Part shown: piece by piece, positions 2,861 to 63,799 of the stretch
Position numbering within the stretch: the first letter of the stretch is position 1
How the letters are laid out: every line of letters starts with the position of its first letter
Origin: Marinilongibacter aquaticus
Lineage (GTDB): Bacteria; Bacteroidota; Bacteroidia; Cytophagales; Spirosomataceae
Direction of reading: 5' to 3'
Assembly (NCBI RefSeq): GCF_020149935.1
Contig: NZ_CP083757.1
Coordinates: 3,807,501 to 3,871,500 of the forward strand
DNA length: 64,000 nucleotides
Notes under the pieces: generated by a model
What the model saw: the letters and a program-made list of their open reading frames with translations, nothing else
Told to the model about the DNA's origin: nothing
Databases searched by the model: none
Translations under genes and position numbers: made by a program

Positions 2861-5782
2861 ATGAAAATCAAACTTTTATTTCTTGCTTTTATCAGCTTGC
2901 TCTTTGTGTCTGAGCTTTCGGCACAAACAGGGCGAGCACTCAGCGGAAAGGTGACCGACGAGTCGGGCACTGCATTGACTGGGGTTTCGGTAAGCGTGGT
3001 GGGGACGACCGTCGGAGCGATCACCAATGCTGATGGCGAATACACCATCACTTTGCCAGAAAATACCGACGAGGTGGTTTTCTCCTTTATCGGGATGAAA
3101 CCCCAAACAATAGCGGTGAACAACCGCAGCAAAATCGATGTGACTTTGGAGTCTGATGCCACTCTGCTCGAGTCGGTGGTTGTGGTAGCCTACGGCACGC
3201 AGAAAAAATCGGATATCACGGGAGCGGTAGTCAACATTAAATCGAAAGAATTGACCGACGTGACTACGAGTTCGGCTTCGAATATGCTGCAAGGAAAAGT
3301 GGCGGGTGTGCAAATTTCACAAGGTAGTGGACAGCCGGGCAGTACGCCTGTTATTCGTATTCGCGGAAAATCTTCTTTGAACTCGAGTGTCGATCCACTT
3401 TGGGTTGTAGATGGTATGATTATGCACGGCACCCCAAACCTTAACCCGAATGAGATTGAGTCTATTTCGGTTTTGAAAGATGCCGCGGCTACATCGTTGT
3501 ATGGTTCTCGGGCAGCCAACGGTGTGGTGGTAGTGACCACCAAAGGAGGAAAAGTGGGTTCGAGTTCTTTTTCGGTTTCGAGCAAATACGGGGTGAGTAC
3601 CTTGAACCAAGGAAATTTCAAATTGCACAATTCGCAACAGTTGTACGATTACTATAAAAACTTGGGCAATCCAGAAAGTGTACCGGATTGGTTCACGGAC
3701 GATGTGTTGAAAAAGGATTTTGACTGGGTGAAAAACGGAACCCGTACGGGACAAATTCAGGATCATAACGTAACCTACACATCGGGCACCGATAAATCGC
3801 GTACGTTTATTTCTGGCGGCTATTACCAAGAAGAAGGAGCCGTAAAAGGATACAATTACGAGCGTTACAGCTTTCGCATGAATTTGGATTACGATGTGAA
3901 TTCCAAATTGACAATCAGTCCGAAATTGGCCATGAACTCAAACAACCGCAGCGACAGGCAACATTCGCTGTACGAAATGTATTTGAATATGCCTTGGGAT
4001 TCGCCATATGATGCAAACGGCGAACTGATTAATCCGAGAACGACCGATGTGTGGTATGGTCGCGACCAAAGCAATTACCTGTACGATTTGCAATGGAATT
4101 ATGGCCGCAGCAGCGAATTCAACATGTTTGGAAATTTCGACTTCCAATACGATATCACCAAAACATTAAAGTTTGTATCGACAAACGGCTTGACCTTGTA
4201 CAATTCCGACGGATTGGGCTACACGGATCCACAATCCATTTCGGGCGAAGCCAATCAGGGTTCGGTTAGCAACAGCAACGCGAAGCGTGTCACTCGCTTT
4301 ACCAACCAAATGTTGCGTTACACCAATTCATTTGGCAATCACCGCATCAACGCTTTGGCGGCATACGAATACAACGATTACAATTACATGGGTAATTCGG
4401 CAAAAGGAATCGGCATTATCAGCGGCAACCAGATTTTGGATGGGACATCGAGCCCCAATGATGTATCGGGTACACGAAACGAGTATGCTTTGCAGTCATT
4501 GTTGATGAATGTGGATTACAATTACGACGACCGTTACCATGCCCAATTCTCGATCCGTCGAGATGGAGCGTCGAATTTTGGCGAGAACAGCAAGTACGGT
4601 ACTTTCTACGCCATGAGCGGGGGTTGGAATATACACAAAGAGAGCTTTTTCAATGTGAGAGCGATCAATGCCTTGAAACTGCGTGCCAGCTACGGTGGAG
4701 TAGGGAACAGACCGGGTTCATTGTATCCGCAGTATGATTTGTACGGCATTGACAACAGCTACAACAGCAGCCCAGCAGCTACACCAACGCAATTGGGCAA
4801 TTCTGATCTTTCTTGGGAAAAATCATACGAAACGAACATCGGTTTGGATAGCCGCTTGTTCAATCGTCTGAGCTTGACAATGGAATATTACGTAAAGAAT
4901 ACATCGGGGCTTTTGTATTATGTAAAATTGCCTTCGGTGACGGGATACGATGGATACTGGGAAAATATCGGCGGCGTAGTCAACAAAGGCTTTGAAGCCA
5001 TCGTGTCTTACGACGTGATCCAGAACAAACCTTTTACATGGACTTTGGATTTCAATATTGGGCTTAACCGCAACAAAATCACCGAATTGTACGACGATCA
5101 GGAGATCGACCGAGGCACAAAGATTTTTAAAGAAGGCTATAATCTCGATACTTGGTACATGCGGAAATGGGCTGGTGTGGATCCTGCCACCGGAAACCCA
5201 ACGTGGGAAATCAGAGACAAGGAAACCGACGAGGTGACCATCAGCCAAGATTACAATACGGCGAACAAGCAAATTTTGGGCAATTCTACTCCGAAATTCT
5301 TCGGTGGCTTCTCTTCAAGCATGAGCTACAAAAACTTCTCTTTACGTGCCAATTTTACCTACGTGAAGGGCAATATGATTTACAACCAATCGCGTGAGCT
5401 TTACGATGCGGATGGAGCGTATCCAACATACAACCAACAAGTGTTGGCCGATGGCTGGTCGCGTTGGGAAAAGCCAGGCGACATTGCTACGCACCCGAAA
5501 GCCTATTATGGTGGAAACAACAACTCGAACAAGGTGTCTTCTCGTTACTTAGAAGATGGCAGCTATTTGAGGTTGCGGAACGTGACCTTGGCCTACAATT
5601 TGCCTTCATCTGTGGCTGAGAAACTGCGTATGAGCAATTTGGGCATCTATATATCAGGCGATAACCTGCTCACGTTTACCAAATTTTCGGGCATGGATCC
5701 TGAAGTGGGAGACAGTGGTACATACAACACGCTTTACCCACTCACGCGAAGAATGGTGTTGGGCTTAAACCTAACTTTTTAA
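2861..5782 (+). CDS. SusC/RagA-family TonB-linked outer-membrane transporter
   Basis: The protein has 973 residues. A signal peptide (1-21, ending ELSAQ) is followed by a carboxypeptidase-regulatory-like domain (about 25-110, SGKVTDESG), a plug (about 115-225, with RIRGKSS, WVVDG and SLYGSRAANGVVVV) and a long TonB-dependent beta-barrel ending in the aromatic LGLNLTF. Proteins of this family pair with a SusD lipoprotein to import oligosaccharides across the outer membrane using TonB energy. It lies 11 bases after the GH109 gene and 2 bases before susD, so the three are almost certainly co-transcribed. The sulfatases and GH109 nearby suggest a sulfated amino-sugar glycan as cargo. Confidence 0.95.
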   Translation: MKIKLLFLAFISLLFVSELSAQTGRALSGKVTDESGTALTGVSVSVVGTTVGAITNADGEYTITLPENTDEVVFSFIGMKPQTIAVNNRSKIDVTLESDATLLESVVVVAYGTQKKSDITGAVVNIKSKELTDVTTSSASNMLQGKVAGVQISQGSGQPGSTPVIRIRGKSSLNSSVDPLWVVDGMIMHGTPNLNPNEIESISVLKDAAATSLYGSRAANGVVVVTTKGGKVGSSSFSVSSKYGVSTLNQGNFKLHNSQQLYDYYKNLGNPESVPDWFTDDVLKKDFDWVKNGTRTGQIQDHNVTYTSGTDKSRTFISGGYYQEEGAVKGYNYERYSFRMNLDYDVNSKLTISPKLAMNSNNRSDRQHSLYEMYLNMPWDSPYDANGELINPRTTDVWYGRDQSNYLYDLQWNYGRSSEFNMFGNFDFQYDITKTLKFVSTNGLTLYNSDGLGYTDPQSISGEANQGSVSNSNAKRVTRFTNQMLRYTNSFGNHRINALAAYEYNDYNYMGNSAKGIGIISGNQILDGTSSPNDVSGTRNEYALQSLLMNVDYNYDDRYHAQFSIRRDGASNFGENSKYGTFYAMSGGWNIHKESFFNVRAINALKLRASYGGVGNRPGSLYPQYDLYGIDNSYNSSPAATPTQLGNSDLSWEKSYETNIGLDSRLFNRLSLTMEYYVKNTSGLLYYVKLPSVTGYDGYWENIGGVVNKGFEAIVSYDVIQNKPFTWTLDFNIGLNRNKITELYDDQEIDRGTKIFKEGYNLDTWYMRKWAGVDPATGNPTWEIRDKETDEVTISQDYNTANKQILGNSTPKFFGGFSSSMSYKNFSLRANFTYVKGNMIYNQSRELYDADGAYPTYNQQVLADGWSRWEKPGDIATHPKAYYGGNNNSNKVSSRYLEDGSYLRLRNVTLAYNLPSSVAEKLRMSNLGIYISGDNLLTFTKFSGMDPEVGDSGTYNTLYPLTRRMVLGLNLTF

Positions 5783-5784
5783 TC

Positions 5785-7452
5785 ATGAAAAGGACATTTG
5801 AAATGAAAAAAATAGCATTAAGTATATTGCTTTTGGCAGGCATGAGCTCCTGCGATATAGACCGTTTTCCCTATAATTCCATCGAGTCGGGTAGTTTGTT
5901 TGAAGATGAGGGCGGGCTTACTTCGGCCACATTGGGAAATTACTCTTTGTTGAAAGGTAAAAAGGACGAGTCGGCGTGGTTTGATGACTGGCAGCGTTTG
6001 GCCGAATATCCCGGCGACAACGTGTCTTTGAGCGGAACCACAACCGACAACCTGTTTTATTTCTACAATTACAAAAACATCCCGAACAACAGCCGATCCT
6101 CGCGATTCTGGAGTTTCTCTTACCGTGCGGTAGTGGGGTGCAACAAGGTGATTGAAGCCGCAACCGAAGGACAGTCGGAAACAATGGATCAATTGATCGG
6201 TGAAAACTATTATATCCGGGCTTTGATTTATTTCCAAATGGCCAATATCTACGGACGTCCTTACACACAAGGACGCGATAACTTGGCCGTTCCGCTAAAG
6301 CTGTCTACGGATATAGAAGAAAAGCCAGACCGCAATACGGTGGGCGAGGTTTACGATCAGGTAGTGGAAGATTTGATGAAAGCCGAAGGCTTAATGAATC
6401 AAGCGAAATCGGCATCTTATGCCACAAAAGAAGCGGCTCAGGCTCTATTGTCGCGTGTGTATCTGTACATGGGCGAAAACCAAAAGGCGATTGAGTATGC
6501 CGATAAGGTGATAAATTCTGGACGTTACTCTTTGTTGGGCACAGAAGATTTCAAGCAGTACAATGTGTTTACACCTGAAAACAACGCAGAAACCATTTTT
6601 GCCATTAAGTTCACGAAAGAGTCGGACTATGGACACGGCTGGTACACTATTGGTTCGCTTTACGCCAATATCAAAGGTACGGGTTGGGGCGAAATGTACG
6701 CGTCCAAAAGTTACCTCGACTTATTGCACGAAAACGCTAACGATGCCCGCGAGGCTTTCATCGATCCGCAATACCTGACGGATGACAATGGCGATGAAAT
6801 ACCGAATGTGATGTGGGTTGATGCCAATTACAAATACCAAACTCGCCCTACTTATGAAGAGGCTGGCAAATTGTATTTCGATAACGCTGAAGGTGTAAAG
6901 ACGGAAGTGTTGAGCGAAAACATGGAAGGTGAAACGGCTTTCTATTTTGTCGGTAGCCAAGGGAAAGTGTATGTGGAGAAAAGTTTTGAGATGGCGAAAA
7001 GAAACGGCTATCCTAAATATTACATTTTGAAAGCGTCGATGCAAGAAGGTGAACCGCAATTGTGGTCGCCCACGGTATCGAGATTGGCCGAAATGTACCT
7101 GAATAAAGCAGAAGCTTATGCCAAATTGGGCGATACGCAACAGGCTTTAGATAATGTAAACATCATCCGTGAAAGAGCTGGGATTTCCATGTACAACGGC
7201 CTTTCTGATTTGAAAGAAGGCCAAAATGTATTGGAAGCCGTGCTTCAAGAACGTCGTTTGGAATTGGCTTTCGAAGGACACAGAAAGTTTGATGTGTTCA
7301 GAAACAACATGACAATGGACAGGCATTATCCGGGAACACACCTGAATGGCAATGACCCGTATTACGAAGTGTTGCCCAATGATCCGCGGGTGATTGAGTT
7401 CATTCCGGAAAGTCAAATTGCGGTGCAACCTTCTTTAATCCAGAATGACTGA
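5785..7452 (+). CDS. SusD/RagB-family glycan-binding lipoprotein
   Basis: This 555-residue lipoprotein has a signal with a lipobox ending MSSC. The SusD fold is recognisable from the N-terminal FPYNSIESGSLF region, the TPR-like helices (QAAQALLSRVYLYMG) and the C-terminal block LQERRLELAFEGHRKFDVFRN typical of the family. SusD caps the SusC barrel on the cell surface and binds glycan. A second in-frame ATG at 5803, eight bases after AGGA, gives a cleaner signal peptide (MKKIALSILLL) and may be the real start. Translation is probably coupled to susC, whose stop lies just upstream. Confidence 0.95.
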   Translation: MKRTFEMKKIALSILLLAGMSSCDIDRFPYNSIESGSLFEDEGGLTSATLGNYSLLKGKKDESAWFDDWQRLAEYPGDNVSLSGTTTDNLFYFYNYKNIPNNSRSSRFWSFSYRAVVGCNKVIEAATEGQSETMDQLIGENYYIRALIYFQMANIYGRPYTQGRDNLAVPLKLSTDIEEKPDRNTVGEVYDQVVEDLMKAEGLMNQAKSASYATKEAAQALLSRVYLYMGENQKAIEYADKVINSGRYSLLGTEDFKQYNVFTPENNAETIFAIKFTKESDYGHGWYTIGSLYANIKGTGWGEMYASKSYLDLLHENANDAREAFIDPQYLTDDNGDEIPNVMWVDANYKYQTRPTYEEAGKLYFDNAEGVKTEVLSENMEGETAFYFVGSQGKVYVEKSFEMAKRNGYPKYYILKASMQEGEPQLWSPTVSRLAEMYLNKAEAYAKLGDTQQALDNVNIIRERAGISMYNGLSDLKEGQNVLEAVLQERRLELAFEGHRKFDVFRNNMTMDRHYPGTHLNGNDPYYEVLPNDPRVIEFIPESQIAVQPSLIQND

Positions 7453-55217: not shown

Positions 55218-57293
55218 ATGAAAAACAAGTATACTCTTAATTGGAGAATGTATTTAATGACATTCTTGAGCCTATTTGCTATATCAGCGTTTGCCGCAGA
55301 TCCCATACCAGTAGCCCCAACTTTACAAAAACAAGGTGGCCAAATTAGGGTTAATACTACGCTTCCTGACGGCTCTTTGTTTGATAACCCAGGGAACAAC
55401 TACGAAATTGTTTTTGAAAGAAAGGTTGATGCGGGTCCTTGGACTGAAGTAGGAACTCAATCTATTGTACCTTTGAGTAATAATTACGACGCGTCTTACG
55501 TGGATACTGATGTGGATGACGGGAAGACGTACACGTATAGAGTGGCTTTGAGAGATACAGATACACCTGCAATGACGGCTTATCAAACGTCGGAATCATT
55601 GATGTATACTGAATACGAGGGCTCTTTGATCCTCAATCTTTTGGATAAGTCAGATACTTGGATTTTTGTGCATTTGTCTGATCAAACAACTCCATCGGGG
55701 GCAACAGTGAGCTATGATCTAAAATACTCCGCCCCTGGGGTTCCTGAACAAGTGGCTAGCTTTACTCCAACAAACAAAAAGTTGGAAAATCTGAACCCCA
55801 ATACAGAATATAAGATTGTCGGAGTGGCTTACAATGTGGATAATACCCCCATTTATAGTGATCCTATTTACGTAAAAACCAATAGAGCGAAGCCTGATCA
55901 CGCGGTTTCCTTTAAAGGAATAAATATATGCCCTGAAAAGGTAACTGTTCAGGCTCAGTATGCGGACCCTTCCCAGTTTGATACTTGGGAGATGTATATG
56001 AACAACAGTTTTGTAGGAAGTGGCTTCTCTGACAAAATTGAGCAAAAAGTACAGGGCCTAGTGCCAGGGGGCACTTATACTTTCAAAATCATTGTCACAA
56101 ATGAGACGGGCTCAACTTCTGATGAGGTCGTAGTGCATACAACAAGATATCAAGGCCCTACTGCAAGTGGTTTGATGGTATTGGATCAGACGATCACGAA
56201 TGACGGAGGAACAGTGAGTTGGGTGAATGATCCAGAAGATTGGAACTGTAATGATAAAATCAGAGACGTAATACTTATTTCTCGTGTATTTGTGAGACAA
56301 GATGGAACGGTTGACTCTTCAGTAGTCTATGCTGAACATAAAGACATCACCAATTATGTAGTAACAGGTGCCGGTGAGAAAACATGGGTTGGTGTATACG
56401 TGAAGCCTTTCAATGAGCATCATGTATTGGGCGACTGGACAGGTCCGGTGTGGTTTAGAACTTATGGTCCGCCAGATGCTCCAACCGATTTGAAAGCCGT
56501 ATCTAGAGTGGATGCTACGGGCGATAACGAAACATTGGTGACTTGGATGGATCCAATTGACGACAACTCTCCTGAAGATATGTATGTTATTGAAGTAAGT
56601 ATAAACGGAGGAGACTTCAAGTTTTTGTCCAATATCCGAAAAGATGCGGAGTCGTTTATTCATAAGCCTGTGCAAGAAGGTGTAACGTATACCTACAGAA
56701 TTACTGGAATCAACCAATACGGAAACGGCCCTTATTCTGAAGAACTTGAGCATATGCTCGACTTCAGTACTGCTCCAAACGCTCCTTATAATCTTCAGGC
56801 TATGATGGCTGACAGCGGTGTGAGACTATCTTGGTTGGACGATTCTGACAGAGAATCGGGTTTTGCGGTAATGCGATCTATGGACGGCAGTTCTTGGGAT
56901 GAAATTGGCACAACAGCTATGAACGTCACTTGGTTTTTGGATGAAACGGCAACTTCGGGTCAAACATATTGGTACCAAGTTGTAGCTCGCAATGATGTGG
57001 GGGATTCGGGCCCAAGTGAAACCGTAGAATTCACTTATGGAGCAACAACTGCTTTTGTGAACGTATATCCAAACCCGACTGTGGATGGCGTAAATGTACG
57101 TGTGGCTTCAAGTGCTTCACATACTGCACAGGTTTCATTGATTGATCAATCGAACAGAAAAGTGATTGAGACGAGCATTAAGTTGGATAACGGTGTGGGT
57201 CGCTTGCCTTTGAATGGTGTTGTGCCCGGAGCGTACCAGTTGATTATCAAAACTGATGGTCAGCAAGTATCCAGAAAGATATACAAGTATTAG
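55218..57293 (+). CDS. Secreted fibronectin type III protein with T9SS C-terminal sorting domain
   Basis: The 691-residue protein has a signal peptide (about 1-27, ending SAFAA) and four to five fibronectin type III-like modules, the clearest at about 415-510 and 520-605 (APTDLKAVSR..., APYNLQAMMAD...). The last 75 residues are a type A T9SS sorting domain: VYPNPTVDGVNVRV, SLIDQSNRKV, LPLNGVVPGAYQLIIK and a terminal KIYKY. The protein should be exported by the GldKLMN machinery and attached to the cell surface or released. Its function is probably adhesive, but it is unproven. Confidence 0.9.
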   Translation: MKNKYTLNWRMYLMTFLSLFAISAFAADPIPVAPTLQKQGGQIRVNTTLPDGSLFDNPGNNYEIVFERKVDAGPWTEVGTQSIVPLSNNYDASYVDTDVDDGKTYTYRVALRDTDTPAMTAYQTSESLMYTEYEGSLILNLLDKSDTWIFVHLSDQTTPSGATVSYDLKYSAPGVPEQVASFTPTNKKLENLNPNTEYKIVGVAYNVDNTPIYSDPIYVKTNRAKPDHAVSFKGINICPEKVTVQAQYADPSQFDTWEMYMNNSFVGSGFSDKIEQKVQGLVPGGTYTFKIIVTNETGSTSDEVVVHTTRYQGPTASGLMVLDQTITNDGGTVSWVNDPEDWNCNDKIRDVILISRVFVRQDGTVDSSVVYAEHKDITNYVVTGAGEKTWVGVYVKPFNEHHVLGDWTGPVWFRTYGPPDAPTDLKAVSRVDATGDNETLVTWMDPIDDNSPEDMYVIEVSINGGDFKFLSNIRKDAESFIHKPVQEGVTYTYRITGINQYGNGPYSEELEHMLDFSTAPNAPYNLQAMMADSGVRLSWLDDSDRESGFAVMRSMDGSSWDEIGTTAMNVTWFLDETATSGQTYWYQVVARNDVGDSGPSETVEFTYGATTAFVNVYPNPTVDGVNVRVASSASHTAQVSLIDQSNRKVIETSIKLDNGVGRLPLNGVVPGAYQLIIKTDGQQVSRKIYKY

Positions 57294-57312: not shown

Positions 57313-57350
57313 AAGAGGGCGATGTATTGCATCGTCCTCTTTTGTTTTTT
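57313..57350 (+). terminator. Terminator after the T9SS cargo gene
   Basis: AAGAGGGCGATG and CATCGTCCTCTT pair with one G-U around TATTG and run into TTTGTTTTTT. It ends only 10 bases before the thiolase start. Confidence 0.88.
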
Positions 57351-57359
57351 AGGAGCCCC

Positions 57360-58487
57360 ATGAAAGGAGATGTCTATGTATACGATTGCATTCGGGTACC
57401 GACAGGGAAAGCGGGTGGTCGATACAAATCGGTGTTGCCCGAAAGCTTGGCGGCGTTTTTGATTGAAGAAGTTCTTCAAAGACAAAATTTGTCAGGCTGT
57501 CCACTGGAAATCATCTTGGGCAATTCAATCGGAACCATGGGCAATATGGCTCGGTATGCATCCTTGCTTACGAGCCTTCCCAAATCTACATTGGCTTCTA
57601 CTGTGGATTTGCAATGTGGAGGGAGTTATCAGGCCATACGCATGGCGATGGCTCAGCTAAAGTCAGGTTTGAATGAAGTGGTAATTGCTGGAGGTATGGA
57701 GAGCAATTCGCTTCAACCGCATCGATTTTATGCCAAAAATGATCCGCGGTATACAGATGGAAAGGCATTTCTTACCGCAAATTTTAATCCACAAAGTACT
57801 CAATCTTTGGCCCAGTCTGCTGAGCAATTGGCTCATGCTTTTCAAATAACAAAGGACGAAATGTGGGATTGGGTTCTTGAAAGCCACCACCGAGCGGCAG
57901 ATTTTATACAAACAGCGATTTATAAACGACATGTGATCGATTACGATAGAAAAGGGCCTGATCAAACTGTAAGGGTAGATTTGAAACGAGAAGATTTGGT
58001 ACGTTGGTCGACAAAAGAAACCATAGATCGAACCAATACCGCTCATTATCATGATGGGGCAGCCGTTCTTGTTTTGGGTACAGAAGAACTTGGTAGACGT
58101 TTGGATAAAAAACCAATGGCCTGTATTCGGGATATACTGATTTTAGGAGTAGATCCAGACGAGGCTCCCAAAGGTGTGATTTATGGAGCCAGTGAGCTTT
58201 TGGAACAGCACGCTTTGAAAGCCAAGGATATAGATATTTTCGAAGTGAATGAGTCCTTTGCCTGTAAGCCCTTGAGTTTTGCCAAGCATTTTGGATTGAG
58301 TGATAAAAAGTATTTGAACGTATTTGGCGGGAATTTGGCATACGGCCATCCTTTCGCGGCCTCGGGCACAATGAATTTGTTGCATTTGATTTTGGCACTT
58401 AAAGAAAAGAAGCAGACCTTTGGGCTTCTTTCGGCAGGAGTAGCCGGTGGCTATGGAGCTGCCATGCTCGTGGAAAATTGCGAATGA
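57360..58487 (+). CDS. Thiolase-like protein lacking the second catalytic cysteine
   Basis: ATG 57360 gives 375 residues (the earlier ATG lies in the terminator). The nucleophile cysteine is in DLQCGGSYQAI, the NESFA loop is kept, and the catalytic histidine is in GGNLAYGHPFAASG. In the C-terminal motif where thiolases have C-x-G-G-G, this one reads GVAGGYG: the acid/base cysteine is Gly. The protein may condense or transfer acyl groups without reversible thiolysis. Its stop overlaps the next gene by ATGA, so translation is coupled to the acyl-AMP ligase. Confidence 0.85.
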   Translation: MKGDVYVYDCIRVPTGKAGGRYKSVLPESLAAFLIEEVLQRQNLSGCPLEIILGNSIGTMGNMARYASLLTSLPKSTLASTVDLQCGGSYQAIRMAMAQLKSGLNEVVIAGGMESNSLQPHRFYAKNDPRYTDGKAFLTANFNPQSTQSLAQSAEQLAHAFQITKDEMWDWVLESHHRAADFIQTAIYKRHVIDYDRKGPDQTVRVDLKREDLVRWSTKETIDRTNTAHYHDGAAVLVLGTEELGRRLDKKPMACIRDILILGVDPDEAPKGVIYGASELLEQHALKAKDIDIFEVNESFACKPLSFAKHFGLSDKKYLNVFGGNLAYGHPFAASGTMNLLHLILALKEKKQTFGLLSAGVAGGYGAAMLVENCE

Positions 58488-59836
58488 TTACTGATCAAAT
58501 ACGTATTCATGCTCAAAATCATCCATCGAAAACCGCTTTGGTTTTGGATGGCAAGGCAATTTCTTATGCCCAGCTTGAAAGACTGACGGGAGCATTTGAA
58601 GAATCTCTACACGGCATACAGGAAAGCACAGTTTTGTTTCGGGGAGATGCCCTGGAGAACTTGTGCGGAATGTTGGCCTGTAATCAAGTCGGTAAATCGG
58701 GGATTGTTCTTCCCCTGGATTTTTCTGAAGAAAGAATAAGAACACTTCGGCAAGAATATCAAGCAGTATTGTGGGGCAAAGAAACGAGTGGGGGGCAAGG
58801 ACTTGATGATTCCAAAACAAAAGAAGAACACAACGATAATTTTTTGGGCATCCTGACATCCGGTTCAACGGGTGAGCCCAAAGTGATTTGGAAAAGCGAT
58901 GCGAATTGGCAAAAGGCTTTTCCTTATCAATCCGAGATATTTGGTTTGACTTCGGAGGATCGCATTTTTGTAGTGGATGCATTGGCATATTCCGCCAATT
59001 TGAATGCGGTAATTCACGGCCTTTGGCTGGGAGCGACTGTTGTGCTTGGGCAATTTTCGCAATCGCGTTTTTGGTTGAAACAATGGGAGCAGCAACAAAT
59101 TTCGGCAGCATTCCTGGTGCCTTCACATTGTCGTTTGTTGACTAAATCTCAGTTTAAGTACACCGGACTAAAGTCTTTGGCTACGGCAGGAGAGAAGTTG
59201 GATGTGAATACCGCCAGGTTTCTCCTTGAAAAGTTTCCGAATGTATGCCTCACCGAATATTACGGTGCAGCCGAATTGGGGCATATCACGTATCATCAGA
59301 ATTGGGATATTGTACACAATCCGATTTCGGTGGGAAAACCGTTTCCAGAAGTGCAAATCGCAATTTCAGAAGGCGAAATTCAAGTGCACAGTCCCTATGT
59401 TTCTGAGGACTTCAAAGAAAGGGCAACTGTGCATGATTTGGGTTATTTCGAGGGCGAGCACTTAATACTTTTAGGGCGTGCAGGCAGAGTGTTCAACCGC
59501 AGGGGGATTAATATTTTTGCCCAAGAGGTTGAAAATGTCGCTTTGGACTGTGGACTGATTCAAGAAGCGGTTTTGGTTTCGCATTCAGATTCGCTGGAAA
59601 TTCAAAAACTCACACTCTTTTATTCGCCTAAAAAGGAAGGAAATATATCGGAGTTGGAGCTGCGGAAACGAATGGCGGAGAAACTGCCAAAATCGAAACT
59701 GCCCAATTTTTTTAAAGAATTGAAAGTGATTCCCCATTCGGATGCGGGAAAAATCGATTTCAGGGCATTGAGTAAAATGTGCGATGAACACCATACGAAA
59801 ACTGCTACCGACAGTTTTGTTCATTTCTCATTTTAA
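58484..59836 (+). CDS. Acyl-AMP ligase/acyl-CoA synthetase-like enzyme
   Basis: ATG 58484 overlaps the thiolase stop. The 450 residues show the ANL superfamily motifs: LTSGSTGEPK (A3), YYGAAE (A5), GRAGRVFNRRGINI (A8) and SDAGKIDF (A10 lysine). It is shorter than most long-chain CoA ligases. It should activate a carboxylic acid and load it on CoA, or another thiol, for the coupled thiolase-like protein. Staphylococcal VraA/VraB have similar lengths and pairing, as I recall. Substrate unknown. Confidence 0.85.
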   Translation: MITDQIRIHAQNHPSKTALVLDGKAISYAQLERLTGAFEESLHGIQESTVLFRGDALENLCGMLACNQVGKSGIVLPLDFSEERIRTLRQEYQAVLWGKETSGGQGLDDSKTKEEHNDNFLGILTSGSTGEPKVIWKSDANWQKAFPYQSEIFGLTSEDRIFVVDALAYSANLNAVIHGLWLGATVVLGQFSQSRFWLKQWEQQQISAAFLVPSHCRLLTKSQFKYTGLKSLATAGEKLDVNTARFLLEKFPNVCLTEYYGAAELGHITYHQNWDIVHNPISVGKPFPEVQIAISEGEIQVHSPYVSEDFKERATVHDLGYFEGEHLILLGRAGRVFNRRGINIFAQEVENVALDCGLIQEAVLVSHSDSLEIQKLTLFYSPKKEGNISELELRKRMAEKLPKSKLPNFFKELKVIPHSDAGKIDFRALSKMCDEHHTKTATDSFVHFSF

Positions 59837-59846
59837 ATAAAAATCA

Positions 59847-61760
59847 ATGTTAAAATATTTTTTCCTGTGCATGGGCATGGCGGCTTCGCTGTATGCTCAA
59901 GATACCTTGCAAGTTGTGGACCTTGCGGCAATCAAAGTCTCCACGAACATCGTTCAAAATGAATTGAAGTCTGCGGCTCGAAATGTGTCGATAATCAGCC
60001 AAAAGGACATTGCCCTTTCTCCGGTGAAAACCTTGGACGGCATTTTGCAGTATGCCCTTAATCTTGATGTGCGTTCGCGATCGCCATTGGGTGTGCAGTC
60101 GGATATCAGTATACGTGGTGGAAATTTTGACCAAACATTGGTGTTAGTGGACGGCATTAAGATGAACGATCCCCAAACGGGACACCATTCGCTGAACTTG
60201 CCAGTTCCCATCGAAATGATAGACCACATTGAAGTGCTGCAGGGCGGAGCTTCACGTGTGTTTGGCCCGAGTGCCTTTTCTGGACTGATCAATGTAATCA
60301 CAAAGAAAAATCTCGATAAACATATTGTAGCCGAAGTCGCTGTAGGACAATACGGTTTACAGAAATATGCGTTGGCCGCTGGATTCACTTCGGGTAAAGT
60401 TTCGGCTATGGTTTCGGCATCGAAAGTGAAATCCAAGGGCTATACCCACAATACCGCCTTTGATCGTGATATGGCGTATGGGAAAGTCGACTGGGCACAG
60501 AAATATGGTTATTTGACCGTGCAAGGCGGATATTACGGCAATGATTTTGGAGCGTCTAATTTTTACCATCCCAAATTTTACGAGCAATACGAAGAAACGC
60601 ACGCTCGCTTTTTGGCACTTACCCAAAACGTACAATTTTCGAATAAGCTTTCGGGTACTTTGAATTTGTCGTATCGAAGACACAATGATTTGTATGATTT
60701 CGATAAATACCGATTTTCGAATATACAGAATGTGAATTTCCATCAGTCTGAAGTGTACGATGCAGAATGGAAAATGAGGTATTTGAGTAATTTCGGAGCC
60801 AGTGCTTTTGGATTGGAGTGGCGTAGCGAGGGCATTTTGAGCAACAGATTAGGTGACGATTTGGATTCGCCAAAACCTGTGAAGAACTACGAGGAAGTCT
60901 TTTATTCAAAGTCGAAAGTAAGGCAGAATATGTATGCGTATTTGGAGCAACAAAAACAGTGGAACAAGTTTAAACTGGCCGGTGGAGCTTTGCTAAATTA
61001 CAATTCGCAATTTGGTGTCAATGTGTACCCGGGTTTAGACGCCAGTTATTTCTTGACCGGCAACAGCACGCTCTATGCTTCGGCCAACAGGGCTTTGCGT
61101 TTTCCGACTTTCACAGAATTGTATTTGAATACATCTACCGTGCAGGCCGATCCCAATCTTCTTCCTGAAAAGGCCATGCATTATGAATTGGGTTATAAAT
61201 ACTTCGATTCAATCTTCAACCTTTCGGCTTCTTTGTTCTATAAGGCCACAAAAGATGCTATCGACAAGGTGAAAAGGCCCAGTCAGGCGGTGCCCACCAT
61301 CGAAAATATAGATCACATAAACATGGGCGGTTTCGACTTTCAGGGGCAGTTGAGTTTTGCAAATTTGTGGCATAAGCCCAAGAGTGTGTTGCAGAAGGTG
61401 CAGTTCAACTATGCCTATTTGCTGGCCGATAGGAAGGAAGAAGGCTTCCAGTCCTTTTATTCCTTGAATTATCTGCGGCATAAGCTGTCGACGGGTGTTT
61501 TTCTACGTTTGGCCCACAAGCTCAATGCCACAGTGTGGTATACGTTTAAAAAACGCGAAGGCCAATACCAATGGGATGCCGAAACGGCTCCGGTGGCTTA
61601 TCGTCCTGTACATTTGTTGGATATGCGGGTCGACTACAATTTGGGTATGATCGGTTTGTATTTCGATCTGAAAAATGCATTGAACTATAATTACTATGAA
61701 TATGGTTTTGTAGAGCAGCCCGGGCGTTGGGCAAGTGTAGGCCTGAAGGTGCAGCTTTGA
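59847..61760 (+). CDS. TonB-dependent receptor, BtuB/vitamin-like
   Basis: The 637-residue protein has a signal peptide ending SLYAQ and a plug with the SDISIRGGNFDQTLVLVDGIKMNDPQTGHHSLNLPV block and VLQGGASRVFGPSAFSGLINVITKK, then a 22-stranded barrel ending WASVGLKVQL. No carboxypeptidase-like domain is present. The compact form recalls BtuB and related vitamin or metal-chelate receptors. The substrate is not identifiable. It lies 10 bases after the acyl-AMP ligase and may be in its operon. Confidence 0.9.
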   Translation: MLKYFFLCMGMAASLYAQDTLQVVDLAAIKVSTNIVQNELKSAARNVSIISQKDIALSPVKTLDGILQYALNLDVRSRSPLGVQSDISIRGGNFDQTLVLVDGIKMNDPQTGHHSLNLPVPIEMIDHIEVLQGGASRVFGPSAFSGLINVITKKNLDKHIVAEVAVGQYGLQKYALAAGFTSGKVSAMVSASKVKSKGYTHNTAFDRDMAYGKVDWAQKYGYLTVQGGYYGNDFGASNFYHPKFYEQYEETHARFLALTQNVQFSNKLSGTLNLSYRRHNDLYDFDKYRFSNIQNVNFHQSEVYDAEWKMRYLSNFGASAFGLEWRSEGILSNRLGDDLDSPKPVKNYEEVFYSKSKVRQNMYAYLEQQKQWNKFKLAGGALLNYNSQFGVNVYPGLDASYFLTGNSTLYASANRALRFPTFTELYLNTSTVQADPNLLPEKAMHYELGYKYFDSIFNLSASLFYKATKDAIDKVKRPSQAVPTIENIDHINMGGFDFQGQLSFANLWHKPKSVLQKVQFNYAYLLADRKEEGFQSFYSLNYLRHKLSTGVFLRLAHKLNATVWYTFKKREGQYQWDAETAPVAYRPVHLLDMRVDYNLGMIGLYFDLKNALNYNYYEYGFVEQPGRWASVGLKVQL

Positions 61761-61810: not shown

Positions 61811-62221
61811 ATGGTGAGAATTACAAGACGCGAATATTTTAACGCGGCCCATAGATTGTATAATCCGAAATGGTCTGAGGAGAAGAACTGGGAGGTTTTT
61901 GGGCCTTGCAGTAGGTTGCATGGCCACAATTGGGAACTTTGGGTTACTGTACAAGGCGAAGTTTCTGAAGATACAGGTTTTGTAATGGACCTGAAAAAAT
62001 TGAAGGATTTGGTGCGGGAACATGTGATTTCGCAAGTGGATCATAAATATTTGAACGAGGACGTGGAATTTCTGAAAGGCCTTTTGCCCAGCACAGAGAA
62101 TTTTGTGATGGCCATTTGGCAGGTATTGGAGCCCATTTTGAAATCACGTTTTGGGGTACAATTGTACGAAGTGAAACTGTACGAAACCGAAAACCATTAC
62201 GCTCAATATTTTGGGGAATAA
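61811..62221 (+). CDS. queD: 6-carboxytetrahydropterin synthase / 6-pyruvoyltetrahydropterin synthase-like
   Basis: The 136-residue enzyme has the zinc ligands His in FNAAHRL and HGHNW, with the catalytic Cys in FGPCSRLHGHN, and the conserved Glu in VKLYET. QueD makes 6-carboxytetrahydropterin for queuosine; the same fold makes pyruvoyltetrahydropterin. Which product applies here cannot be read from sequence. lpxB follows at once, its ATG one base after the TAA. Confidence 0.93.
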   Translation: MVRITRREYFNAAHRLYNPKWSEEKNWEVFGPCSRLHGHNWELWVTVQGEVSEDTGFVMDLKKLKDLVREHVISQVDHKYLNEDVEFLKGLLPSTENFVMAIWQVLEPILKSRFGVQLYEVKLYETENHYAQYFGE

Positions 62222-62222
62222 T

Positions 62223-63329
62223 ATGAAGTGCTTCATTATTGCGGGCGAAAAGTCGGGCGATTTACATGCAGGCAATTTGGCGAAAGCCTTGAAGCGGAAA
62301 CAGGAGAATGCTGTTTTTCAGGGATGGGGTGGAAGCGAAATGCGAAATGCCGGTGTAGAGGTACTTCAAGACTATTCGGATTTGGCTTTCATGGGGCTCG
62401 ATTTTTTGGGTTCGATATGGAAGATCAGGAAGTTGCTTCAAACCTGCAAAGAGCAGATAGAAACGTTTTCGCCCGATGTGCTCGTTCTGGTGGATTACAG
62501 CGGTTTTAATTTACGAATTGCCAAATGGGCCAAGAAGCAGGGTTTGCGGGTGGTGTATTATATCGCCCCTAAAACTTGGGCTTGGAACGCCACAAGGAAC
62601 CGGAAAATCAGAAAAAATGTGGATTTGCTCTTGGCTATTTTGCCTTTCGAAGAATCCTATTTTCGAGAAAAGGGCATTTGCACAAAGTATGTGGGGAATC
62701 CACTGATTGAACGAATTGATGATTTCAAAGTCGATTCGGAATTCAAGAATTCGCTTCCTCAGGAATTTGAAAATGTAATTGCCTTATTGCCCGGAAGCCG
62801 AGTGAATGAGATCATGCGGATGGCGGGTGAAATGAAACAATTGGCTAGAAAATTCGAAGACAGCCTTTTTGTCATTGCGGGAATTCCAGATGTGGATCAA
62901 CATTTGTACGAAACCTTTCGCTGCATCAAAAACTGCGAGGTTGTAATCGATCATACCTACGACATTCTTTCCGTAGCCAAGGCCGCAGTGGTGACATCGG
63001 GAACAGCGACTTTGGAAACGGCTCTTTTCGGCGTGCCGCAAATTGTGGTGTACAAGACTTCCGAAATGGCGTATAAAATCGTCAGCAAGCTAATAAAGGT
63101 GAAATACATTTCGTTGGTGAATTTGATCTTGAACAAGCCGGCCGTAAAGGAATTGATTCAAGATGAATACACAAGTGCCAATGTGGTCACAAATCTGCGT
63201 ATCTTAATGGACGAAACCAGCAATGAGCGTAAAGCCCAGTTGGCGGCGAGTGTAAAGCTTCGTGAAATTATTGGAACACAAAAAGCTTCGGATGAAGCGT
63301 CTGACGAGATTTTAAAATTGATAAACTGA
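62223..63329 (+). CDS. lpxB: Lipid-A-disaccharide synthase
   Basis: The ATG at 62223 gives 368 residues. Motifs are IIAGEKSGDLHAGNL, FMGLDFLG, DYSGFNLRIAKWAK, YIAPKTWAWNATR, YVGNPLIE, LLPGSRVNEI and TSGTATLETALFGVPQIVVYKT, all typical of LpxB. It links UDP-diacylglucosamine and lipid X in lipid A synthesis at the inner membrane. It is coupled to queD upstream and, through a TGATG overlap, to the lipoprotein gene downstream. Confidence 0.97.
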   Translation: MKCFIIAGEKSGDLHAGNLAKALKRKQENAVFQGWGGSEMRNAGVEVLQDYSDLAFMGLDFLGSIWKIRKLLQTCKEQIETFSPDVLVLVDYSGFNLRIAKWAKKQGLRVVYYIAPKTWAWNATRNRKIRKNVDLLLAILPFEESYFREKGICTKYVGNPLIERIDDFKVDSEFKNSLPQEFENVIALLPGSRVNEIMRMAGEMKQLARKFEDSLFVIAGIPDVDQHLYETFRCIKNCEVVIDHTYDILSVAKAAVVTSGTATLETALFGVPQIVVYKTSEMAYKIVSKLIKVKYISLVNLILNKPAVKELIQDEYTSANVVTNLRILMDETSNERKAQLAASVKLREIIGTQKASDEASDEILKLIN

Positions 63330-63799
63330 TGAAGAAAAATCTGTTTTTAGGCCTGATTTTGCTGTTGGGCTTCTCTTGCAAAGAGAAAAGTGCAGAACCC
63401 AAAAGCAATTTGGAATTATTGACCGACGGACTAAGTGCGAGCTATGTAGTCAGTGAAATTACAGCTAATCAAGGCGGAGTGAGCATAGATTTATTGGCCA
63501 CCGAAAATCCGTGTATTACAGACAATCTGCTCATTTTAAACAGTGATTTTTCTTATGCCTTGGCCGAAGGCGATACAAAATGTGACCCCAACGATCCGGA
63601 TACAATCTTGTCTTCTTCTTGGTCTTTGAGTGCCGATGAAAAGTCGATAACGATTGACAAATTGATCTTTTTGGGCAGAACATTAACGGCTCCAGTTTTT
63701 CAAATCGAAAGCATTAATTCGAAAGGTTTTTCAGGAAAAACGAACGTGACCTACCAGGGAAATGACTACGAAGTTTTGGTGGGTTTCAGCAAAATTTAA
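63329..63799 (+). CDS. Small lipoprotein with lipocalin-like layout
   Basis: The 156-residue protein has a lipobox GFSC (Cys17) and then beta-rich sequence ending in strands TNVTYQGNDYEVLVGFSKI. It resembles the lipocalin-like lipoproteins of Bacteroidota, but I do not recognise a named family. Two cysteines in NPCITDN and DTKCDPN could form a disulfide. Its ATG overlaps the lpxB stop. Confidence 0.65.
   Translation: MKKNLFLGLILLLGFSCKEKSAEPKSNLELLTDGLSASYVVSEITANQGGVSIDLLATENPCITDNLLILNSDFSYALAEGDTKCDPNDPDTILSSSWSLSADEKSITIDKLIFLGRTLTAPVFQIESINSKGFSGKTNVTYQGNDYEVLVGFSKI

Follow-up and report, generated by a model that had tools for sequence, protein, structure and literature searches.

A TonB-linked version of a ligase-thiolase pair, very probably tied to biotin, in Marinilongibacter aquaticus and related bacteria

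What would a thiolase that has lost one of its catalytic cysteines do beside an acyl ligase and an outer-membrane receptor? The question is raised by three adjoining forward-strand genes in a stretch of 64,000 nucleotides from the genome of Marinilongibacter aquaticus (contig NZ_CP083757.1, positions 3,807,501 to 3,871,500), referred to here as the window. The genes encode a thiolase-like protein of 375 amino acids (57360..58487, with ATG at 57360 and TGA at 58485-58487; Pfam Thiolase_N and Thiolase_C), an AMP-forming acyl ligase of 450 amino acids (58484..59836, ATG at 58484-58486; AMP-binding and AMP-binding_C) and a TonB-dependent receptor of 637 amino acids (59847..61760; Plug and TonB_dep_Rec). 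The thiolase gene ends and the ligase gene begins within the same four letters, ATGA, and the receptor ATG lies 10 bases past the ligase stop. We conclude that this trio is a new, TonB-linked version of a known ligase-thiolase pair whose function is unsolved, and that it is very probably linked to biotin.

We asked whether the three genes stay together in other genomes. Of 59 related genomes, among them that of the window, nine have a thiolase orthologue (E <= 1.6e-80; next best match 3.8e-40), and the same nine have a receptor orthologue (E <= 1e-192; next 2.4e-72). The order thiolase-ligase-receptor was kept in all 8 relatives, including those where the surroundings had changed: neither flank is common in L036, and the upstream flank differs in L037 and L038. 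It was also present at 16 of 16 named loci (L080-L095; Jiulongibacter, Emticicia, Lacihabitans, Siphonobacter, Leadbetterella and other assemblies), five of these loci apparently coming from genomes already counted among the 8 relatives. An overlap of 4 bases between thiolase and ligase (ATGA, TTGA or GTGA) recurred in 6 of the 8; in L038 it measures 4 or 1 bases depending on the start codon chosen, and in L037 there is a 1-base gap. Identity across relatives was highest for the receptor (47-64%), with 38-50% for the thiolase and 39-51% for the ligase. The arrangement is not due to chance. A sequence-only reading of the window had grouped thiolase, ligase and receptor from the overlap and the 10-base spacing, and had looked to the conservation of the neighbourhood for confirmation; the coordinates are as it gave them, and the 8 relatives and 16 named loci bear the grouping out.

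How far is the first protein still a thiolase? It carries the Pfam thiolase N and C domains (2.2e-26 and 9.6e-27) and scores above the cut-off of TIGR01930 (264 bits, cut-off 240.55). The first match of its AlphaFold model in the PDB was the BktB thiolase 4w61 (TM 0.86); mean pLDDT of the model is 83, with three stretches inside residues 117-141 below 50. In the alignment, the equivalents of catalytic Cys89, Asn316 and His348 (Zoogloea numbering) are present as the nucleophile Cys86 (codon at 57615..57617), Asn297, from which an NESF motif runs, and His330 within GHP. The equivalent of Cys378, described in passages of PMC3406046 as the base that takes the substrate proton in the Claisen step, is absent. 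The canonical motif there is C-x-G-G-G, and the window protein reads SAGVAGG with Gly360 in place of the cysteine (codon at 58437..58439). Among 20 thiolases of the group that we aligned, the nucleophile Cys and the His were present in all 20, and position 378 was occupied by Gly 13 times, by Pro six times and by Ser once. The alignment also held 114 other thiolases (115 rows less one duplicate of the Rhizobium pair), of which 108 had Cys at that position and 6 did not; two of those six had also lost the nucleophile and the His, so the loss of Cys378 is not exclusive to the trio group. Judged by sequence, the window protein is a member of the thiolase superfamily and not a catalytically canonical thiolase, because Gly360 replaces Cys378 and the position is non-Cys in 20/20 group members. 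The sequence-only reading had already noticed the retained Cys, NESF(A) and His motifs, and these stand. It had described the lost cysteine as a single Cys-to-Gly change in C-x-GGG; the Gly is confirmed in the window and a non-Cys residue throughout the group, but the window motif is GxAGG and not GxGGG, so two positions have changed and not one.

To which enzymes is this pair related? The top NCBIfam model for the window ligase was PRK07638 (146 bits, next 105; equivalog cut-off 518) and the top specific model for the thiolase was PRK06690 (184 bits, next 175; equivalog cut-off 498), and the same models came out best in the other trio members scanned (three thiolases and three ligases). We take PRK06690 and PRK07638 to be the models of Bacillus YhfS/YhfT. 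Among 14 control genomes PRK06690 matched B. subtilis and Deinobacterium at E <= 1e-90, one of the matches being over the cut-off. According to passages of PMC4016012, B. subtilis BirA together with biotin and ATP binds the yhfU operator (yhfUTS), and YhfU is BioY-like; passages of PMC6391492 and PMC7235819 describe repression of yhfS-yhfT and bioY by S. aureus BirA. No Bacillus pair occurred among the plasmid matches listed (best 30 of 823, 40 of 1524, 60 of 261 and 60 of 122), the Priestia thiolases among them being left out of account, and a scan of viral contigs gave 19 loci. The kinship with YhfS/YhfT rests on the family models, and lineage was compared with BioY-linked pairs of alphaproteobacteria and actinobacteria. 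An order of energy-coupling factor (ECF) ATPase, EcfT, BioY, ligase and thiolase was found in Azospirillum ramasamyi, A. thermophilum, A. oryzae and S. meliloti, and tblastn revealed the same order in Streptantibioticus and Microvirga. The S. meliloti BioY gene, SMc00965 and SMc00966 respond jointly to NolR, as stated in a passage of PMC12445080.

These pairs proved to be related to ours in both proteins. Cys378 was absent in 7/7 pair thiolases aligned, five BioY-linked and two from Rhizobium (6 Gly, 1 Ala), which with the 20 of the trio group makes 27/27, no Bacillus or Staphylococcus YhfS being among them. The thiolase tree (52 rows of about 140, including 13/20 trio members) united the window group with the BioY-linked and Rhizobium pairs, apart from the ordinary enzymes sampled (98/92), and the grouping was kept (97/93) when the motif columns and two rows with long branches, Microvirga and L107, were removed. 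In the ligase tree (38 of 66 open reading frames, with few close outgroups) the window group and the BioY-linked pairs were likewise united (99/95). As judged from these trees, the pair is of common descent with the BioY-linked ligase-thiolase pairs. Some of those operons are fuller. The S. meliloti and Streptantibioticus operons also hold a thioesterase and an oxidoreductase of the medium-chain dehydrogenase/reductase (MDR) kind, and both genes accompany the ligase-thiolase pair on two Rhizobium plasmids (L201, L229), where the thiolase has Gly at 378; the related Azospirillum ligase has matches at E <= 1e-45 in 110 Rhizobium plasmid records. In the PDB the MDR protein matched a putative quinone reductase (3gms) best, with mitochondrial 2-enoyl thioester reductases next. 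In the record of S. meliloti Ak57 (L226) the ligase, at 4572-6058, is unannotated, with an open frame only from about 4932 onwards; this ligase may be interrupted in that record. Searches through the class/phylum of a locus titled Phytoplasma gave 0/395 and 0/392 genomes over the cut-off.

The two partners of the thiolase say less about the substrate. The window ligase has the TSGSTG-PK and YG--E motifs and the C-terminal GK lysine (positions 125, 258 onwards and 422; TSGSTGEPK, EYYGAAE and GKID in full), and Lys423 was unchanged in 9/9 sequences aligned. Its PDB matches were adenylation domains of nonribosomal peptide synthetases (NRPS), with aryl-acid ligases weaker. The nearest curated families of the receptor were BtuB/TonB-B12, far under their cut-offs: it scored 108.6 of 836 bits with PRK10641 and 104.2 of 599.7 bits with TIGR01779, too low to count as BtuB. 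Haem and siderophore receptor families were also among its closest by sequence, every one under the cut-off. Farther homologues of the receptor occur in five genomes (G024, G033, G034, G047 and G054; E 1e-25 to 1e-72, about 24-37% identity), all of them without bioB, and no biotin gene was recognised adjoining these homologues, for which reason their lack of bioB was not counted as evidence. Two of the homologues, at L197 and L198, stand divergent to a gene labelled by eye as a MocR-like regulator; these are possibly receptors for another vitamin.

Do the organisms that carry the trio need biotin? Among the 59 relatives bioB was above the cut-off in 0/9 trio genomes versus 32/50 others. Family-wide, where a thiolase match alone defined a trio genome, the counts were 0/21 versus 135/201, and by genus 0/7 versus 20/29 (one-sided Fisher 0.0014). 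Similarly, bioA was above the cut-off in 0/9 trio genomes versus 4/5 bioB-positive controls. In the window genome, an assembly of one contig that is 95.75% complete, the best bioB match reached 29.9 of 225 bits and the best bioA match 265.5 of 405 bits. M. aquaticus is thus predicted to be a biotin auxotroph from the missing bioB and bioA. BioY was found in 0/9 trio genomes, and the TonB receptor occupies the operon instead; it was present in 2/59 relatives, with neither ligase nor thiolase alongside within roughly 3.4 kb. Auxotrophy is also reported for S. meliloti 1021 and R. etli CFN42 in passages of PMC8914248; the pair loci analysed here are from other strains of these species.

What, then, might the trio do? 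With slightly less than even confidence, we read it as a biotin-acquisition module of the biotin-auxotrophic members of the family. The TonB receptor would import a carboxylate, either biotin itself or a biotin-like vitamer, through the outer membrane, and the ligase would adenylate this acid, with CoA or a carrier as acceptor. Next, the thiolase would take the acyl group onto Cys86 and join it to a two-carbon unit. The partner in this condensation would most likely be a malonyl thioester, because without Cys378 no base would deprotonate acetyl-CoA, and decarboxylation would make the step irreversible. A Cys-His-Asn site would here work like that of a beta-ketoacyl-acyl carrier protein synthase III (KAS III) enzyme. 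Household enzymes of the FabG/FabZ type and an enoyl reductase would reduce the product, and release of the thioester would leave a side chain two carbons longer; an example would be biotin rebuilt from its beta-oxidised product, bisnorbiotin. Should the MDR protein of the fuller operons be an enoyl reductase, the special steps of a two-carbon extension would be covered by ligase, condensing enzyme, enoyl reductase and thioesterase, and fatty acid synthesis could supply keto-reduction and dehydration. The product would be one wanted under biotin shortage, because the operons of the relatives are repressed by biotin. In this scheme the receptor ligand, the ligase substrate, the malonyl partner and the later steps are inferred. 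The sequence-only reading had suggested an irreversible acyl transfer or condensation, and with Cys378 as the base of the Claisen step (in passages of PMC3406046) an irreversible condensation would indeed be the natural reading. It had also imagined a new acyl-modified molecule, which we no longer favour: because the lineage of the pair is tied to biotin uptake in other phyla, the substrate is likely biotin-related and not a new natural product.

A bolder form of the same idea, which we put forward tentatively and consider rather unlikely as it stands, is a bacterial repair of biotin. An importer would take up biotin with a shortened side chain, the ligase would activate it, and the Cys378-less thiolase, working one way by decarboxylation, would rebuild the valerate side chain. 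Gram-positive bacteria would have this pathway as yhfS-yhfT, and Bacteroidota as the TonB-linked trio. Bisnorbiotin and its kin would in this case be beta-oxidation waste of other organisms. A passage of PMC11203980 names bisnorbiotin as a minor product that human biotin catabolism may yield, and its reuse by bacteria was not found in the literature passages on bisnorbiotin, which dealt with human excretion and a mutagenesis table of bisnorbiotinol.

Several observations weigh against the acquisition module. The PRK06690 and PRK07638 scores are far under the equivalog cut-offs, which by the NCBI rule makes the pair a relative and not an orthologue. A long branch leads to the trio group in both trees, and the ligase tree was flagged for joined long branches among its outgroups. 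The Rhizobium plasmid pairs (L201, L229) do not adjoin BioY, and the neighbourhood of the pair at the trio loci showed neither BioY nor an enoyl reductase or thioesterase. The best NCBIfam match of the MDR protein is a quinone oxidoreductase family, at 76.5 of 296.8 bits, which leaves it a putative enoyl reductase at most. Since 66/201 trio-less genomes, some of them incomplete assemblies, also lack bioB, the trio is not required for auxotrophy. Nor is the pair confined to auxotrophs, because B. subtilis has a biotin operon of its own besides yhfUTS (in passages of PMC4016012). Finally, the trio genera may be one clade with a single loss of bioB; in that case the counts of bioB and trio are not independent, and the co-occurrence carries less weight than its p-value suggests.

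The main rival, which we think improbable, is a bypass for biotin starvation; it has most of its gene content in common with the acquisition module. The receptor would scavenge biotin, and the pair, co-regulated with biotin uptake and acting on substrates other than biotin, would activate and extend salvaged fatty acids in the manner of reverse beta-oxidation when acetyl-CoA carboxylase fails. Repression of yhfS-yhfT by biotin and BirA, as in the passages cited above, fits such a role, and so do the neighbours of the pair in S. meliloti and Streptantibioticus, a thioesterase and an MDR protein resembling enoyl reductases. The loss of Cys378 in 27/27 fits it less well, since the base for a malonyl-free Claisen condensation is gone and a malonyl-dependent enzyme would not sidestep the carboxylase; a dedicated receptor in the operon is also unexplained beyond regulation. 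We regard as marginally less probable again the view that biotin is not involved, and that the diverged Bacteroidota pair serves another small acid imported by the receptor, such as a metal chelator or an aryl acid. The long branch to the trio group would agree with this, as would the proximity of the receptor to BtuB and haem/siderophore families (all under cut-off) and of the ligase to NRPS adenylation domains and, more weakly, aryl-acid ligases, but it leaves aside the absence of bioB from all 21 trio genomes, the shared ancestry with BioY-linked pairs that both gene trees indicate and the loss of Cys378 common to both groups.

Two further readings place the pair elsewhere in biotin metabolism. 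A ligase is the first and a thiolase the last enzyme of beta-oxidation, and the pair might shorten side chains, degrading biotin or its longer homologues by that route. We consider this very unlikely: the operons of relatives are repressed by biotin and not induced (in the passages cited for BirA), thiolysis is expected to require Cys378, and the trio loci, in a comparison with the window genes only, showed no recognisable acyl-CoA dehydrogenase or hydratase next to the pair. An ordinary beta-oxidation operon was set aside for two reasons, the lack of a recognised dehydrogenase or hydratase neighbour and the loss of Cys378 in the members aligned. The least credible reading is that the pair supplies the pimeloyl precursor for de novo biotin synthesis. 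In Bacillus and Staphylococcus the pair is regulated together with bio genes, as far as the passages on BirA go, which would suit it, but bioB was over the cut-off in 0/21 and bioA in 0/9 trio genomes, and two species that carry such pairs include biotin auxotrophs, S. meliloti 1021 and R. etli CFN42 (passages of PMC8914248). It is disfavoured because the pair occurs in organisms without bioA and bioB, and it was rejected for the trio genomes, where both are missing.

A 2002 comparative study of the biotin regulon is said to have been the first to list yhfS-yhfT. In the literature searched, which covered few subscription papers and was seen in part, we found no TonB-linked version of the pair, no loss of Cys378 across it and no demonstrated function; a search of the literature on vraA, vraB and thiolase found nothing. 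The passages of PMC9123166 name no biotin receptor. The trio makes the old question of the pair's job testable through three new handles, namely the catalytic residue missing in 27/27, a Bacteroidota form with an outer-membrane receptor in predicted auxotrophs, and the fuller operons elsewhere, whose added MDR oxidoreductase, related to enoyl reductases, and thioesterase would together spell a two-carbon extension. If the biotin reading is true, the receptor is a candidate TonB-dependent biotin receptor, and should a biotin vitamer prove to be the substrate, biotin waste could sustain auxotrophs, and predictions of vitamin dependence in microbial communities would change.

The trio is preceded by a gene for a secreted FN3/type-9-sorting protein (55218..57293), 3' of which lies a terminator-like hairpin with a T run on the forward strand (57313..57341). 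Because this hairpin follows the upstream gene, the trio is probably a transcription unit of its own, as read from the sequence. The open-reading-frame program had placed the thiolase start at a TTG at 57327, within the hairpin, and we judged 57360 the better start. A hairpin before the thiolase is also present in L031-L035, its stem letters differing each time and its position being kept. On the 3' side (61811-63799) follow a QueD/6-PTPS-like and an LpxB-like gene, both named by eye from the translation, and one small lipoprotein-like gene; these are syntenic in most relatives, L036 excepted, and in L034 an extra gene intervenes.

How does the trio compare with known systems? Canonical thiolases (Zoogloea type, PcaF, FadA) have the fold, the nucleophile Cys and the Asn and His motifs in common with the window protein, and they keep the Cys378 base that it has lost. 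In the thiolase-like protein MsTLP1 the Cys of CxG is also replaced, by Asn, but NEAF and GHP are gone as well (passages of PMC3406046), whereas the window protein retains NESF and GHP. With enzymes of the KAS III type, such as BioZ, it would share a Cys-His-Asn site and an irreversible decarboxylative condensation; they belong to another family, sequence and model both making the window protein a thiolase. The yhfS-yhfT pair of Bacillus and Staphylococcus likewise consists of a thiolase homologue and an AMP-ligase homologue, linked to biotin uptake, as far as passages of PMC4016012 describe it, with BioY there and a TonB receptor in the trio; B. subtilis also has a biotin operon, and its BirA operator at yhfUTS is demonstrated. 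Also comparable are the BioY-linked operons of Azospirillum, Sinorhizobium (bioY-SMc00965-SMc00966), Streptantibioticus and Microvirga, in which a ligase stands directly before a Cys378-less thiolase. Position 378 is Gly there (Ala in Microvirga), the Cys and His are kept as in the trio, and the ligase motif EYYGASE (EFYGASE in Microvirga) is near the EYYGAAE of the trio. They differ in having an inner-membrane ECF transporter where the trio has a TonB receptor, in the reversed gene order, with the ligase first there and the thiolase first in the trio, and in the thioesterase and MDR oxidoreductase that stand beside two of them and were seen at none of the trio loci.

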